From positions 2,852,001-2,916,000 of the forward strand of contig NZ_CP037940.1 in assembly GCF_004358325.1 (NCBI RefSeq): a DNA stretch of 64,000 nucleotides. The letters run 5' to 3'. This DNA is from Periweissella cryptocerci (GTDB lineage Bacteria; Bacillota; Bacilli; Lactobacillales; Lactobacillaceae). Positions within the stretch are counted from its first letter, which is position 1. Each line of letters starts with the position of its first letter. Below, piece after piece: positions 9,626 to 16,684 of the stretch. The notes beneath the pieces are model-generated. The model saw nothing but the letters and a program-made list of their open reading frames with translations, had not been told where the DNA came from and made no database searches. The translations under genes were made by a program, and so were the position numbers.

Positions 9626-10780
9626 ATGGCTAAATTTGGAAAAGCTGTCATTACCGATGTTGGTAAGCGTGGCGTCGCGGATTTGATTGTTGGCAATGAA
9701 GAAATCACGTTTACGAAAATACAGACATCAAGTACATCGGTACCTGATAACTTGTTACGTTCATTGGAATCACTAACTAATGTTAAACAAGAAACTATAC
9801 CAAGTAACGTCTCGCGATTGAGTGAAGACCCGGACACGGTTGAAGTTAACTTTGCTATTACTAACTTGGAAATAACAATTGATTACACCATCAACACGGT
9901 AGGGTTATTCATTAAAGGAATGGATGACGAAGACGTATTGTTTGCCGTATTTTCTGCGACTAGCGGTGTACTGATTCCGGCATTTGGTGTGAATAACAGC
10001 ATGTCTACCTCGATTGGATTACGTTTCAAGATGAGTGCAGATGCCACAGTGAGTTTTGCGGTCAGTCCAGATGTGCTGATAACGCATCAAGAATTCGAAG
10101 CTGCACTTGCTGAGCAGGATGAAATCAATCAAGCGAAGGCTGATGATGGCCAAGTTGTGAAACTAAACGGAGACCAAGCAGTTTTAGGCGAGAAAGATTT
10201 TGAAATCTTGAAGATGGCTGGAGAAATTGTTGCCACATTAGGCATGTTACCAGTCAACCCAGCTAATGATGATCAAGTGGTTCATACAACGAAGGATGAA
10301 GCGATTGTTGGCAAAAAGAATTTTACGGATTTGAACCAAAATAATAAGAAGGTTGCGACAATTGATCAACTTCCAGACATGTCTAGATACGCGTTAAATA
10401 CTTCTGTTGGTAAGATAAAACGTTTAGCAAGTTGGTCTGCGACTGTTCGTAACGGAAACACGCTAACTCTTTCAGAATCAGTGGATGCCTATGATTTCAT
10501 CACGATGGAAGCAGCATACAATGGCGTTCGGTGTTTTGGTGAGTGGGTCGCTCGTTCAGCTGCTCGTTCGGGTGGATGGACAGCAACTGCTACTAATATA
10601 AATGACACCGTGAATGCAGGACCAGAAACAGGACAAGCGCGAATGAAAATGCCAACACCCACTACGCTCAATATTATCGACGTACGAGCTATTAAGCAAA
10701 ATACTCAAGGAGTTACGACGCTGGTTGAAAATACTGATCAGTTCATAATTTACGGGGTGTTTGGTATCAAATTTAATTAA
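9626..10780 (+). CDS. Phage tail fibre protein
   Basis: This 384-residue protein has a GAAAGGAG ribosome-binding site. Its N terminus (KAVITDVGKRGVADLIVGNEEITFTKIQ) resembles tail-fibre attachment domains found downstream of XkdU. Two related short blocks follow (DGQVVKLNGDQAVLGEKDFE and DQVVHTTKDEAIVGKKNFTD), which look like repeated fibre-shaft segments. The C-terminal ~120 residues form a beta-rich tip-like domain (VRCFGEWVARSAARSGGWTATA). It is separate from the diversified receptor-binding protein that follows. Fibre role from position and repeat layout. Confidence 0.75.
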   Translation: MAKFGKAVITDVGKRGVADLIVGNEEITFTKIQTSSTSVPDNLLRSLESLTNVKQETIPSNVSRLSEDPDTVEVNFAITNLEITIDYTINTVGLFIKGMDDEDVLFAVFSATSGVLIPAFGVNNSMSTSIGLRFKMSADATVSFAVSPDVLITHQEFEAALAEQDEINQAKADDGQVVKLNGDQAVLGEKDFEILKMAGEIVATLGMLPVNPANDDQVVHTTKDEAIVGKKNFTDLNQNNKKVATIDQLPDMSRYALNTSVGKIKRLASWSATVRNGNTLTLSESVDAYDFITMEAAYNGVRCFGEWVARSAARSGGWTATATNINDTVNAGPETGQARMKMPTPTTLNIIDVRAIKQNTQGVTTLVENTDQFIIYGVFGIKFN

Positions 10781-10797: not shown

Positions 10798-13338
10798 ATG
10801 ACAGCAATTCAATTGAATTTATCACTGGATAAATCATTTGTGACCGACCAAATCCTTGTGCTTCGTCGTGGAGATTACGGGTATCAAGAATTTGATGCAA
10901 CAATCGCAGACTTCATACCAACCGGCTGGGACTGTCGATTTAAAGGTATTAATAATGCGGGCGAATCAGTAATTTCAGAAGTTGAAGTGACAACTTCTGG
11001 AAGTGATTCTGTTGCACATCTTGGGTTCAAGTCTAATGCCGGCTCAGAAGTCGGGAGGTATCAACGCGCATACTTGGAATTCTCAAAAGAAGTTGACGAT
11101 GAAATGCAAATCGTTTCAACGAATAATTTCATCGTGACTGTGATTGGGGATGTCGATTATTCCGAAGAACAAGCAAATGAAACCGTGAACTTTTACAACA
11201 CGATGGTATCAACAATCGAAGAACACTTTAATCAAACGTTAACGGAGATTATTGATTATCGTGATGACGGTATTGTTGAAATCCAAAACATTTTAGATGG
11301 ATTGGTTACTACCGCTACTGCCACCAAGGATTCAGTGGCAGAGGCATTAGCTGAGTTCACTGCGTATTTGAATACACAAGAAACGCTTTGGACTGAGAAC
11401 TATGAAGCTAAGCAGGCTGAAATCATTTTAATCGTTAATCAACTGGCAGAATCATTGCAACTGAAAAGTGATTTAGAAAATGCGCTAACAGAATCGGCTG
11501 AGTTAAACGCTGCGCTGCAAACTAAATTAGATGAAGCAATGACTACTTGGGAAGGGTTGGAGGAGCGGAAGGCAGAAGTCGAACATGCGACGGAGGTTGC
11601 ATTATTCGCAGGTGAAAGTGCGACAGCATCTAAGAATGCGACGGAGGTTGTTCGCACCAACACCGAAAACCTACGCGCAACACTCCAAGCTTGGCTAACC
11701 AACAGCAACTCACAACTAGCCAGCGCCACGCAACAAATCACCAGCATGCTCGAAGCAATCGATACTGGTGAAATCATCACGAGAGAGGAATTTAACGAAA
11801 TCATGGCCACAGTTCAAATGAACGTACCAGAATTTATGCGAAAAATTTACGGCATTAAAATCAATACCAATGATGGTTCAGACGCTGGCGTTGTCCGCAC
11901 TGATGATTCCGCCGATTGGGTAGTTTACGCCGGCTTTGATGGCGAAACGCCACGCAACGATGCCGATGCAGCCATGCGTGACTTCATTTCTAAGCCTTAC
12001 AAAGACGCTATCGGCAACTGGTACGTCGATATTAAACGTCACTACACCGACATTCGTAAGACAGAATCCGGGACGTTTATCAAGCGTATCAGTCTTTATC
12101 CGTACCCAGGCTGGACACTCAGTCCAAAATTCAAGAATCCAACGACCGGCAAGTTGCTTGATCACATCTCAATCGGCTGTTTCAAAGCTTCAAGTGAATC
12201 AAGTCGAATGATTTCCAAGCCAGGGAAATACCCAACGAACTGGACTTCGATAGTTAGTTTCCGGACACAAGCCAAAGCCAATAATAACTTGGCGCCAGGT
12301 CACCAACAAATGGATTTTCACACGCGAATGGTAATCACGAACATCGTTCAGATTGTCACTGGAACGTTGAACCCGCAAGAGAAAGTGCTCAGTGATGCGG
12401 ACGTTCATGGCACAGCAATCAAAGCTCTGCGCGGACTGATTTCTGAATCGTATGATGGCGTTCAACCATCACGATTAGAGTACGAAGCGGACGGCACCAC
12501 CGTTAAAGCCACCAATCGCATTATTTTTCCGGACAATACCAACACACGAAAATATCGTGTTGGACAATCATTTTCTGGGGCTGGTGGCACTCGCACAATC
12601 ACGAAGCTCTCGTGGACAAGCAATCCAATCACTTCGGCTAAAGAATTGGTTGTGTGGGTTGATGGTGCGCCGTATAAGACAGCGGCTACCACTGCGCACT
12701 ATTGCCAGGGTTGGCCAACAGGCTTCACCAAAGACATCGCTGCGACAATCGGTACGAAAACAACGTATCGCATTAAAACTGATGCAACCATTGAGCCACT
12801 AGTCGATGGTGATGGCAACGACTTACCAGTAAACGGGACGAATACAGTTACTAACCGAGAAATTCTTTATAACGATGGCACACAACCATTCAGCTTTTAT
12901 GGTATGGAAAACTTGTGGGGCGACCTCTGGGAATGGGTTGATGACTTGAATATCAACACCCTCGAAGATGGTACGCAGGAAATCTGGACGACCGATGGTG
13001 GTGATTCTAACGCCTTTGCCTCAAATCTCTTTGCCGCACCATATAGAAAATTGGGATATGGTGCCAAAACTTCCGAATCGTGGATTAAAGATGTTGGCCT
13101 AGATCCAGATTCACCATTGCTTAATTTACCAATCCAAACTGCGACTAACGGAACTGAATCGACATATTACGGTGATTATTACTATCGTTCAACTGCAGTT
13201 GCTCCGCACGTTGCGCGTGTGGGTGGCTACTTCGACAATGGCACGAATGATGGGTTGTCGTGTTGGAACTTGAACAACACGACGTCGGGCACGCACGCGA
13301 ATATCGGGACTCGCCTGGTTAAAATGGCTTCGGTTTAA
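10798..13338 (+). CDS. Receptor-binding baseplate protein: BppU-like N terminus, coiled coil, DGR-diversified lectin-like C terminus
   Basis: This 846-residue protein is the target of the diversity-generating retroelement. Residues 1 to about 125 resemble the BppU baseplate upper protein domain (SLDKSFVTDQILVLRRGDYG). A long helical, coiled-coil-like region follows (about 130-350). The C-terminal half looks like the formylglycine-generating-enzyme/C-type-lectin fold used by DGR targets; NLWGDLWEWVDD near residues 704-715 is a family signature. Residues about 808-839 are encoded by the variable repeat (13219-13314) and end in ANIGTRLVKM. It probably contacts the host surface and switches specificity when the repeat is rewritten. 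The DGR target call is firm; the ligand is unknown. Confidence 0.93.
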   Translation: MTAIQLNLSLDKSFVTDQILVLRRGDYGYQEFDATIADFIPTGWDCRFKGINNAGESVISEVEVTTSGSDSVAHLGFKSNAGSEVGRYQRAYLEFSKEVDDEMQIVSTNNFIVTVIGDVDYSEEQANETVNFYNTMVSTIEEHFNQTLTEIIDYRDDGIVEIQNILDGLVTTATATKDSVAEALAEFTAYLNTQETLWTENYEAKQAEIILIVNQLAESLQLKSDLENALTESAELNAALQTKLDEAMTTWEGLEERKAEVEHATEVALFAGESATASKNATEVVRTNTENLRATLQAWLTNSNSQLASATQQITSMLEAIDTGEIITREEFNEIMATVQMNVPEFMRKIYGIKINTNDGSDAGVVRTDDSADWVVYAGFDGETPRNDADAAMRDFISKPYKDAIGNWYVDIKRHYTDIRKTESGTFIKRISLYPYPGWTLSPKFKNPTTGKLLDHISIGCFKASSESSRMISKPGKYPTNWTSIVSFRTQAKANNNLAPGHQQMDFHTRMVITNIVQIVTGTLNPQEKVLSDADVHGTAIKALRGLISESYDGVQPSRLEYEADGTTVKATNRIIFPDNTNTRKYRVGQSFSGAGGTRTITKLSWTSNPITSAKELVVWVDGAPYKTAATTAHYCQGWPTGFTKDIAATIGTKTTYRIKTDATIEPLVDGDGNDLPVNGTNTVTNREILYNDGTQPFSFYGMENLWGDLWEWVDDLNINTLEDGTQEIWTTDGGDSNAFASNLFAAPYRKLGYGAKTSESWIKDVGLDPDSPLLNLPIQTATNGTESTYYGDYYYRSTAVAPHVARVGGYFDNGTNDGLSCWNLNNTTSGTHANIGTRLVKMASV
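13219..13314 (+). repeat. DGR variable repeat (VR)
   Basis: This 96-base segment at the 3' end of the target gene aligns without gaps to the template repeat 212 bases downstream; 89 of 96 positions match. Seven sites differ. Six have A in the template: VR 13228 (T), 13234 (G), 13262 (G), 13288 (G), 13289 (G) and 13294 (C). The seventh, 13309 (A, template G), lies in the last bases, where the initiation-of-homing (IMH) element normally differs between repeats. The protein effects are Asn to Tyr, Asp, Gly and His, Tyr to Cys, and Ala to Thr for the non-A change. Confidence 0.95.
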
Positions 13339-13345
13339 GGGGGAC

Positions 13346-13363
13346 CGGGGGATTTCTCCCCCG
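13346..13363 (+). promoter_or_regulatory. Hairpin/cruciform element after the DGR target gene
   Basis: CGGGGGA (13346-13352), a four-base loop TTTC, and TCCCCCG (13357-13363) form a perfect 7-bp GC-rich stem 7 bases after the target stop codon. On the complementary strand the loop reads GAAA. Known DGRs such as that of Bordetella phage BPP-1 need a short-stem, four-base-loop structure just past VR for efficient retrohoming, and this element matches that description in place and size. No T-run follows, so it does not look like an ordinary terminator. Confidence 0.75.
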
Positions 13364-13684
13364 CTAGAGAAATTAATAATAAAGGCTTGATGATGCAGAG
13401 TTTCCCGTTGCCGGTTTTGTGGTTGCGATTGTGGGTGGCAACTTCAACAATGGCACGAATGATGGGTTGTCGTATTGGAACTTGAACAACACGACGTCGA
13501 ACACGAACGCGAATATCGGGGCTCGCACAATGTTATTAATGAAATTAAAAATTCAAAACAAATTAATTGCATCATCAAATCCGTAGCGCTTGCTAAAAAT
13601 ACAGCCGACGAAGCATGGTTTAGTAGAAAAACGTCGAAACACCATGAGGCGAATAACATTAGAAATTTAAGAGGTTTTATCACG
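13364..13684 (+). ncRNA. DGR template RNA region (TR plus spacer)
   Basis: This 321-base gap between the hairpin and the reverse transcriptase start carries no convincing gene. It holds the template repeat (13431-13526) and a spacer of about 158 bases before the RT start. In studied DGRs the template RNA spans TR and the adjoining spacer, where the RT primes. The limits given here are simply the gap limits; the real RNA ends are unknown. The sequence just before TR translates to FPVAGFVVAIVGGNFNNG, suggesting TR arose from a copy of a lectin-domain gene end. Confidence 0.6.
13431..13526 (+). repeat. DGR template repeat (TR)
   Basis: This is the template partner of VR (13219-13314). It contains 27 adenines in 96 bases, many in AAC codons, the arrangement that gives most amino acid variety under adenine mutagenesis. 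Weaker similarity extends left to about 13422, with one more A change and one non-A change. Homology stops sharply after CTCGC, where VR continues CTGGTT and TR continues ACAATG. It lies between target and RT, in the same direction as both. Confidence 0.95.
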
Positions 13685-14791
13685 ATGAAACGAGCTAACA
13701 ATCTTTGGCCGCAAATCATCAGTCCGACTAACATTGATATTGCATTAACGCAGGCGGCCCGACACAAAACTCACCGACGTGATGTTCAAAGCTGCATCAA
13801 AAGTCGCGATGTTTTGACCAGACAACTCGCAATTGACTTGAAGCGTGGCAATTTCACGCCATGTCAGCCAAAGGAAATGATTATTTTTGATGGCCCAACC
13901 GGAAAGCAGCGTACAATCTTGAAGCCGCGCTTCTATCCAGACCAACTGGTGCATCAGTTATTAATCACAGCAATCGAACCATCGTTAATGCGAGGTATGT
14001 ATCAATACTCTTGTGGGTCAATTCCAAAACGCGGCGCAAGCTATGGTCAAAAAGCCGTTCGCAAGTGGTTAGACAATGACCCGAGAAATACCAAGTATTG
14101 TCTGAAAATGGATGTATCAAAATTTTACCCGAGCATCGACAACGAAAACCTCAAACGAAAATTTAGAACAATCATCAAAGACAAGAAAGTTCTCTGGTTA
14201 ATTGACCGCATCGTTGATACGCAACAAGGTCAAGCGATTGGCTACTACACGAGTCAATGGTTCGCAAACTTCTACTTGCAAGACTTCGACCATTACGTCA
14301 AAGAGAAACTCGGTGCTAAGTATTATGTTCGATATGTGGATGATTTAGTCATTCTTGGGCAAAACAAGAAAACGCTGCATAAAATGCGCGAACGGATAAC
14401 TGCATATCTTGCGAACGAAGGATTAACGACGAAACCGAATTGGCAAGTATTCAAAATTGCCAAGCTGACACCAAGCGGTACTCATTTCAAGCGTGGCCAA
14501 ACGCCTAACGAATATCGTGGCCGTGCCATTGATTTTCTTGGATTAAAATTTTATCGCGATAATACCACACTACGAAGAAAGAACGTTTTAAGAATCAAAC
14601 GACGAGTCAAAAAGATTAATCGCAAAGGTGAACTGAATTTTCACGACGCGTGCGCAATCGTCAGCTACCACGGTTGGATGACTCGCTCAAATTCAAAACA
14701 CTTATATATCACACACATCAAGCCAGTAGTCACTATTGGTGAAGCAAAGCGGAGGATTAGACATGAATCTCTACGGAAAAATCGAGAATGA
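13685..14791 (+). CDS. DGR reverse transcriptase
   Basis: I start at ATG 13685, with AGAGG about 10 bases upstream; the frame stays open back into TR but starts there would translate the template. The 368-residue protein has RT motifs in order: KPRFYPDQLVHQLL with YSCGSIPKRG, KMDVSKFYPSID (Asp143), IGYYTSQWFANFYL (Ser190-Gln191), YVRYVDD (Asp219, Asp220), and FLGLKFY near the thumb. SQ in motif 4 and the small size without maturase or integrase domains fit DGR RTs rather than group II introns or retrons. It copies TR RNA with A-specific errors to replace VR. It overlaps the next gene by 29 bases. Confidence 0.95.
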   Translation: MKRANNLWPQIISPTNIDIALTQAARHKTHRRDVQSCIKSRDVLTRQLAIDLKRGNFTPCQPKEMIIFDGPTGKQRTILKPRFYPDQLVHQLLITAIEPSLMRGMYQYSCGSIPKRGASYGQKAVRKWLDNDPRNTKYCLKMDVSKFYPSIDNENLKRKFRTIIKDKKVLWLIDRIVDTQQGQAIGYYTSQWFANFYLQDFDHYVKEKLGAKYYVRYVDDLVILGQNKKTLHKMRERITAYLANEGLTTKPNWQVFKIAKLTPSGTHFKRGQTPNEYRGRAIDFLGLKFYRDNTTLRRKNVLRIKRRVKKINRKGELNFHDACAIVSYHGWMTRSNSKHLYITHIKPVVTIGEAKRRIRHESLRKNRE

Positions 14792-14984
14792 TGAATTAAA
14801 AGTAATGATGGCCACCGAATGCCCAGAAGGATACTATCCAGTAATTTTCAACGCCGTGCCACCGTACGACCAAGAAACTCAACTTTGCAAAGTTGGACTT
14901 GGCACAATTGCTTTCGGCACGTTGTACGTCGGTTACGAAATTGAAGATGTACCGGAAAACAACGACGAAAGCGCAGGTGATTAA
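14763..14984 (+). CDS. Small phage protein of unknown function
   Basis: This 73-residue acidic protein uses ATG at 14763, with a GGAGG-like site (GCGGAGG) upstream inside the RT gene. It starts MNLYGKIENDELKVMM. No family is recognised. It overlaps the RT end by 29 bases and ends in TAATG, which starts the holin gene. Its size and composition do not resemble Avd, the helical accessory protein of many DGRs. Similar small acidic proteins commonly sit between tail and lysis genes in lactic acid bacteria phages. Confidence 0.6.
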   Translation: MNLYGKIENDELKVMMATECPEGYYPVIFNAVPPYDQETQLCKVGLGTIAFGTLYVGYEIEDVPENNDESAGD

Positions 14985-16442: not shown

Positions 16443-16491
16443 AAAGCCCCCAACTATTCTCAAAAATTGAGTTTAGTTGGGGGCTTTTTTT
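16443..16491 (+). terminator. Terminator after the endolysin gene
   Basis: A long perfect stem (AAAGCCCCCAACTA paired with TAGTTGGGGGCTTT) with a T-run. It closes the phage late operon. Confidence 0.93.
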
Positions 16492-16684
16492 ATGTATTCT
16501 GCCTGTCGGGATTTACGTTGTTATTTGTTGACCATTTGTTGACTTGCCTATCAAATTCAGTCGTATTTGGCAGGTGATAGTGCAATTGATTCTGCATAAA
16601 ATACCGGTTTAAAGCGGTTCTTGTTAGTTTTGACTAGTCGTTTACTATACGGCGTATAATATTGCAAGAATTAAAACTTAACTG
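16492..16684. other. Probable right edge of the prophage
   Basis: Phage genes end before this stretch and host genes begin after it, so the attachment site should lie here or close by. TTTGTTGACCA followed by TTTGTTGACTT (about 16526-16548) is a short direct repeat of the sort seen as integrase arm sites. No tRNA end is visible. The core cannot be named because the left prophage end is outside the window. Confidence 0.4.

Follow-up and report, generated by a model that had tools for sequence, protein, structure and literature searches.

A diversity-generating retroelement without a recognisable Avd, and its RT-18 spacer RNA, in a prophage of Periweissella cryptocerci

Diversity-generating retroelements (DGRs) direct hypermutation to a particular segment of a gene. 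The mechanistic papers cited here treat one element, that of phage BPP-1, which depends on the protein Avd. A stretch of 64,000 nucleotides of the Periweissella cryptocerci genome (NZ_CP037940.1, positions 2,852,001 to 2,916,000; hereafter the window, in whose numbering coordinates are given unless stated otherwise) raises the question of whether such an element can be complete when no Avd is found with it. We consider it very probable that the window holds a complete Avd-less DGR within a prophage, in which the reverse transcriptase (RT) is predicted to copy the RNA of a template repeat (TR) with errors at adenines, and the mutated cDNA would replace the variable repeat (VR) at the 3' end of a tail-protein gene. 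The cassette runs in the order target/VR, TR, RT, with every part on the plus strand:

10798..13338, plus strand: target gene, encoding an 846-aa tail protein by its match to PHROG 5302 ('tail protein') and carrying VR at the 3' end.
13210..13314, plus strand: VR, core 13218-13314, ending 21 nt ahead of the last coding base.
13295-13314, plus strand: end of VR (last ~20 nt) resembling an initiation of mutagenic homing (IMH) site.
13346..13363, plus strand: hairpin CGGGGGA-TTTC-TCCCCCG, 3' of VR.
13422..13526, plus strand: TR, core 13430-13526.
13529..13537, plus strand: 5' strand of helix P1, AATGTTATT, immediately 3' of TR.
13584..13659, plus strand: RT-18 RNA (RF03021), helices P2-P5, 56.3 bits against a gathering cut-off of 41.3.
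13652..13660, plus strand: 3' strand of helix P1, AATAACATT.
13685..14791, plus strand: DGR reverse transcriptase, 368 aa, with YVDD and IGxxxSQ.

VR and TR form an ungapped repeat of 105 nt at an offset of 212, with 91% identity. Its core measures 97 nt, not the 96 given in the first-pass annotation, whose other counts stand: there are no gaps and seven differences, six of which are at template adenines (13228, 13234, 13262, 13288, 13289 and 13294). With 27 A among the 97 template bases, the hypergeometric probability of at least six of seven differences falling on A is 0.0017. The seventh difference, at 13309, concerns a template G within the IMH-like 3' end. VR lies in frame within the target gene, and all 28 adenines of the 105-nt template occupy first or second codon positions. 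No stop can arise from A-to-N changes in these codons, and ~4e16 proteins are possible. A genome-wide search with TR matched TR and VR only, so there is no second VR.

The adenine bias recurs in related elements. Loci around 63 related RTs were scanned for A-biased repeat pairs, and exclusion of 11 copies or near-copies left 52 loci (the pairs L010/L036 and L008/L031 were kept). A repeat pair was found upstream of the RT in 40 of these, and at least seven of the 12 loci without one lack it because the contig starts less than 400 nt from the RT. Since the detection scan favoured A mismatches, mismatches were recounted by neutral extension, which in the 40 relatives gave mismatches at 619 of 1145 template A (54%) and at 43 of 1077 C, 35 of 1176 G and 33 of 1158 T (3-4%), totals that retain L044 and L057, for which the wrong repeat pair had been taken. 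At least 75% of the mismatches fall at A in 38 of the 40 loci. Closely related pairs allow VRs to be compared directly, and there the adenine mutagenesis first proposed from the single VR/TR pair is borne out. A prophage of Levilactobacillus tangyuanensis (L006) and a viral contig (L029) have TRs identical over 103 nt and four differences in the 300 nt ahead of VR, while their VRs show 16 differences, all 16 at template A; judged from sequence, this pair shows DGR activity in relatives better than any other evidence. Two same-family genomes (L073 and L074) have 12 of 15 VR differences at template A. Of the four differences between their TRs, two (positions 47 and 59) reappear in the VRs, as TR-to-VR copying predicts, and one non-A VR difference is left unexplained.

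Whether the RT belongs with such elements was asked of its sequence, tree position and predicted fold. The frame is intact and is open further upstream, to a TTG at 13475 inside TR, the likely start being the ATG at 13685. Both motifs named in the first-pass annotation are present, namely YVDD and TSQWFAN, the latter within IGYYTSQWFAN, in which SQ is invariant across 46 aligned RTs. The protein matches PHROG 1423 at 2.7e-99, and its best PDB sequence match is 8ub7 (1.6e-20; next-best 1.5e-8). The predicted structure (predicted local distance difference test, pLDDT, 90.5) is also closest to 8ub7, titled a DGR ribonucleoprotein reverse transcriptase (TM score 0.80, root-mean-square deviation 2.6; another state 0.79), compared with TM scores of 0.55-0.69 for group II intron RTs. 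We take the 8ub7-series entries to be the RT of BPP-1; the 8ub7 chain has the length of that RT, 328 aa. A 76-row tree, obtained by a quick search without bootstraps and with a program warning of long branches joining, resolves DGR, group II intron and retron-like RTs as separate groups, with Shimodaira-Hasegawa-like approximate likelihood-ratio test (SH-aLRT) values of 89 on the DGR side, 99 and 99; the five retron-like RTs in it are each below the retron cut-off of 235 bits. The RT groups with other Lactobacillaceae and phage LBR48 RTs (SH-aLRT 94), within a set of 53 rows (SH-aLRT 99). The RT of the crAss-like cr60_1 (L093), whose frame is broken at 132 aa under table 11, perhaps by a recoded stop, was excluded from the tree.

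That the RT is instead one of a group II intron or retron, with a repeat pair that is there by coincidence, has next to no probability. It could draw on matches to the intron model TIGR04416 (85 bits, cut-off 300) and to retron models (64 bits, cut-off 235), all far under their cut-offs, and it is opposed by the tree, the fold, RT-18 as the sole Rfam match in the window and the A-bias that recurs in relatives. No intron RNA is found in the window, and the RT stands apart from retron-like RTs in the tree, no search having been aimed at msr/msd. Thus the concern that the RT might group with sampled group II intron or retron RTs was not realised. Of the 1862 protein matches to the RT, the 120 best include none above 54% identity apart from its own copy, and LBR48, at 48.6%, is its closest entry in the phage collection.

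The spacer between TR and RT offers a second line of evidence. It contains the RT-18 RNA, which stands at the same position in 10 of 11 related genome loci (not L012) and in 14 of 16 viral loci (not L035 and L037). RNAalifold applied to the alignment gave an extra outer helix, P1, that pairs nucleotides 3' of TR with the end of RT-18; P1 reaches the TR boundary and falls outside the Rfam model, with which P2-P5 agree. In the resulting five-helix structure, 91.4% of cells are paired across 24 sequences, and changes on both sides occur in 20 of 23 pairs. Because this structure was written by hand from RNAalifold on the same sequences and from the Rfam alignment, the count leans towards itself, and shuffles and slides serve as its control: none of 500 shuffles reaches any of five structure measures, and slid versions are 35-48% paired. 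P1 itself has double changes in five of seven pairs and 95.6% of cells paired (24 sequences). The window's spacer keeps 22 of the 23 pairs, several of them through two-sided changes (G-C for C-G in P1 and P2). Within the RT-18 RNA, AGUA (13622-13625) lies opposite GAA (13636-13638), which presumably resembles the bulged-G (sarcin-ricin) motif.

Three results tell against the RNA part of this picture. The folding energy of the window's spacer is ordinary (z -0.28), P1 in single sequences beats shuffles in just 9 of 41 loci, and RNAalifold applied to the RT-17 group did not itself predict P1. Among 27 hits outside the model, P1 has at least six pairs in 25, against 47% of between-locus strand swaps, these hits having been found by a model that contains P1 and including some near-copies. 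With E up to 0.01, the covariance model finds the RNA in 57 of 69 sources of related DGRs, a figure that includes the 24 training sequences and some near-copies, and in the 68 BPP-1-type sources it has no match even with the threshold relaxed to E 1.

The target raises the further question of what is being varied. PHROG 5302 tail protein is the match of all 21 aligned target proteins, our own included, and VR lies at the C-terminus of the tail protein in most relatives too. If the varied end contacts the host surface, its rewriting would probably alter the range of cells to which the phage can attach. The target would then be a putative receptor-binding protein, with host-range switching, as proposed in the first-pass annotation, a possible outcome. 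A different assignment of roles, in which a working DGR varies an accessory tail adhesin while the main host-binding part is the product of the upstream tail gene, is rather doubtful and still deserves some weight. The upstream gene (9626-10780) matches BppL_N, a lower-baseplate family, at 6.9e-8 and thus encodes a second candidate host-binding protein, and the target has neither a Pfam domain nor a usable fold model. Against this, the target has the usual DGR layout, with VR at the C-terminus as in most relatives, and the best PDB match of its profile, weak at E 0.037, is 5vf4, a DGR variable protein of Thermus aquaticus (PMC6328139). The C-type lectin (or Ig) fold expected of a DGR target was looked for in a structure comparison of the low-confidence target model; the 50 matches listed include no DGR variable protein, and the alignments are partial and lie mainly in residues 6-98.

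A hairpin of 7 bp begins 32 nt past the VR end; no T-run follows it, and none like it was seen after TR. Its loop reads TTTC on the plus strand and GAAA on the other, and only GAAA fits the 5'-GRNA loop consensus reported for phage DGRs (PMC3240598). Hairpins with at least four G-C pairs lie between VR and TR in 27 of 41 loci, mostly 20-50 nt past VR and mostly with a G-run facing a C-run. Since the BPP-1 hairpin after VR is needed for efficient retrohoming (PMC3240598), the IMH and hairpin here would mark VR, and not TR, as the recipient.

Several observations weigh against a complete Avd-less element at work in this prophage. The fold model of the target is poor (mean pLDDT 52.7), and three further solved DGR RT states reach TM scores of 0.65-0.66 with the predicted RT, no better than the best group II intron RTs. 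The bAvd (PF22296) and related IVP (PF05635) families have no match in the genome, while Avd has been called essential for retrohoming (PMC10053308) and the reconstituted BPP-1 system needs it (PMC12875486). Just six of the 27 template adenines are changed in VR, and the IMG/VR copy shows no difference along the 7751 bases compared; as no other copy of this phage was found, variation of this VR is not seen. The low divergence and the want of a second variant, together with the one non-A difference in the IMH-like end, would also fit a cassette that is a DGR by descent and has since become inactive, with its VR fixed. We regard this as unlikely, given an RT frame intact with YVDD and SQ, a VR in frame, a spacer RNA that keeps 22 of its 23 pairs and a hairpin that has been kept. 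For the complete element, the evidence from sequence covers the parts and their order, the A-biased mismatches, a DGR-type RT, a covarying RNA, the hairpin and, in one close pair of relatives with an identical TR, A-only VR divergence; that the present copy is active today we infer.

Avd is encoded by the majority of DGRs (PMC10053308), and since a survey of complete genomes finds Avd-like domains near 62% of DGR RTs (PMC8934634), Avd-less DGRs as such are not new. A hidden Markov model (HMM) of Avd grown from the BPP-1 protein has no match in the window and matches 66 loci, comprising 64 of 68 BPP-1-type sources and the loci L015 and L096. Both of the latter lie outside the 53-row RT set, and no locus inside the set has an Avd HMM match. 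Of 24 genomes or records, bAvd is above its cut-off in four (BPP-1, L096, L106 and L015), and in two Levilactobacillus genomes it has sub-threshold matches (E 0.003 and 0.08), which are 55 kb or more away from the DGR. The target, VR, TR and RT are ordered and oriented as the first-pass annotation claimed, and its word 'complete' stands if Avd is not required, none having been found.

An unrecognised accessory protein might stand in for Avd, for example the product of the small open reading frame (ORF) at 14763-14984, which overlaps the RT stop. Most relatives, too, have a small ORF that adjoins the RT gene at its 3' end or overlaps it, which speaks for such a substitute. We think it improbable, as these ORFs form several unlinked groups, none of seven that were checked has a Pfam match, and their PHROG matches, two weak ones to tail-protein families and two to families of unknown function, are such as ordinary tail-module genes might give.

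Avd might also be dispensed with through an RNA substitute. Phage_DGR RNA (RF03022) occurs in 11 of 15 Avd-bearing sources, BPP-1 included, and Rfam searches of 16 other loci matched RT-17 in five, RT-4 in one and RT-18 in one. At no locus examined does an Avd match occur together with RT-18, RT-17 or RT-4 RNA. The loci thus seem to follow one of two patterns, Avd together with Phage_DGR RNA, or RT-18, RT-17 or RT-4 RNA without Avd, and in the second the RNA may be standing in for Avd. The partition has gaps on both sides, in that the Avd-bearing L015, L096, L161 and L163 have neither RNA type and several Avd-less loci, e.g. L014, L041 and L063, have no recognised RNA. RT-17 (L045, L046, L049, L056 and L064) and RT-4 (L095) RNAs are located between TR and RT in Avd-less DGR loci, and the same five RT-17 loci weakly match the RT-18-based model. 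We put forward tentatively, as a possibility with somewhat less than even weight, that a large Avd-free DGR lineage has RT-18, RT-17 and RT-4 as its RNA components, with a P1-anchored spacer RNA recruiting the RT and fixing the cDNA start, as Avd does in BPP-1. In P. cryptocerci, the RT-18 RNA and helix P1 would then recruit the RT and place the 3' end of TR for priming without Avd.

The setting of the cassette is a prophage of 46.8 kb between 31-bp direct repeats, a status that rests on the spacing of the repeat and on a Phage_integrase-family gene at its left copy and that agrees with the first reading of the region as a Lactobacillaceae prophage. The following features lie outside the cassette:

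16645..16675, plus strand: right copy of the 31-bp repeat, a likely attachment site.
Genome position 2821835, beyond the window: left copy of the 31-bp repeat, adjoined by the Phage_integrase-family gene.

An inverted repeat with 21-nt arms (90%) lies at 16443-16487, directly past the endolysin gene, and promoter and terminator scans gave no more matches than in shuffles.

A compact Avd-less DGR in an easily grown, food-related family would make the role of Avd, and its replacement by RNA, testable. The findings also give a likely job to several curated Rfam RNA families whose names state no function, suggesting that they serve as template-spacer RNAs of DGRs, and they suggest that tail variation may occur in some phages of lactic acid bacteria. 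In Rfam, neither the name nor the description of the RT-18 family (RF03021) mentions DGRs; Weinberg et al. are said to have introduced the RT-n RNAs in 2017 and may already tie RT-18 to DGRs. The remark that DGRs are seldom noted in lactic acid bacteria is a fair one: a sample of 397 Lactobacillaceae genomes contains eight with such an RT, our own included, and a full-text literature search on DGRs and lactobacilli returned no title with both terms (titles only being considered). LBR48 is an inducible L. brevis phage (PMC6805780), and a term search of the main text of that paper found neither reverse transcriptase nor retroelement.

Among known systems, the BPP-1 DGR (mtd-avd-TR-brt) is alike in having a target with a 3'-end VR, a TR, a DGR-type RT and a structured RNA between TR and RT, and adenine mutagenesis and a hairpin after VR have been reported for it (PMC3240598). 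It differs in that Avd is present there and none was found here, in that its RNA is Phage_DGR and not RT-18, and in its RT, which is 27% identical in the alignment and 40 aa shorter. Within the same RT lineage, DGRs of the Bacillus group, Lachnospiraceae, Butyrivibrio and Faecalibacterium phages belong to the 53-row set, with no Avd found; a matching RNA occupies the corresponding position in most of them, the Rfam match being RT-17 or RT-4 for some and lacking for others, while cr60_1, absent from the tree, is tied to the lineage by RNA alone. Also close are the Levilactobacillus DGRs (L. brevis CD0817, L. tangyuanensis, L. lanxiensis and phage LBR48), which belong to different phages, have RTs 47-51% identical to the present one, carry RT-18 between TR and RT and have no Avd near the DGR. 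The deposited LBR48 record (L025/L079; GU967410, NC_027990) keeps TR, RT-18 RNA and RT and is missing the VR copy that L006 has, which looks like a fusion of VR with TR through recombination or assembly. The three Levilactobacillus bacterial genomes have the same VR-TR-RT order and hairpin as P. cryptocerci, whose own DGR is genuine and Avd-less.

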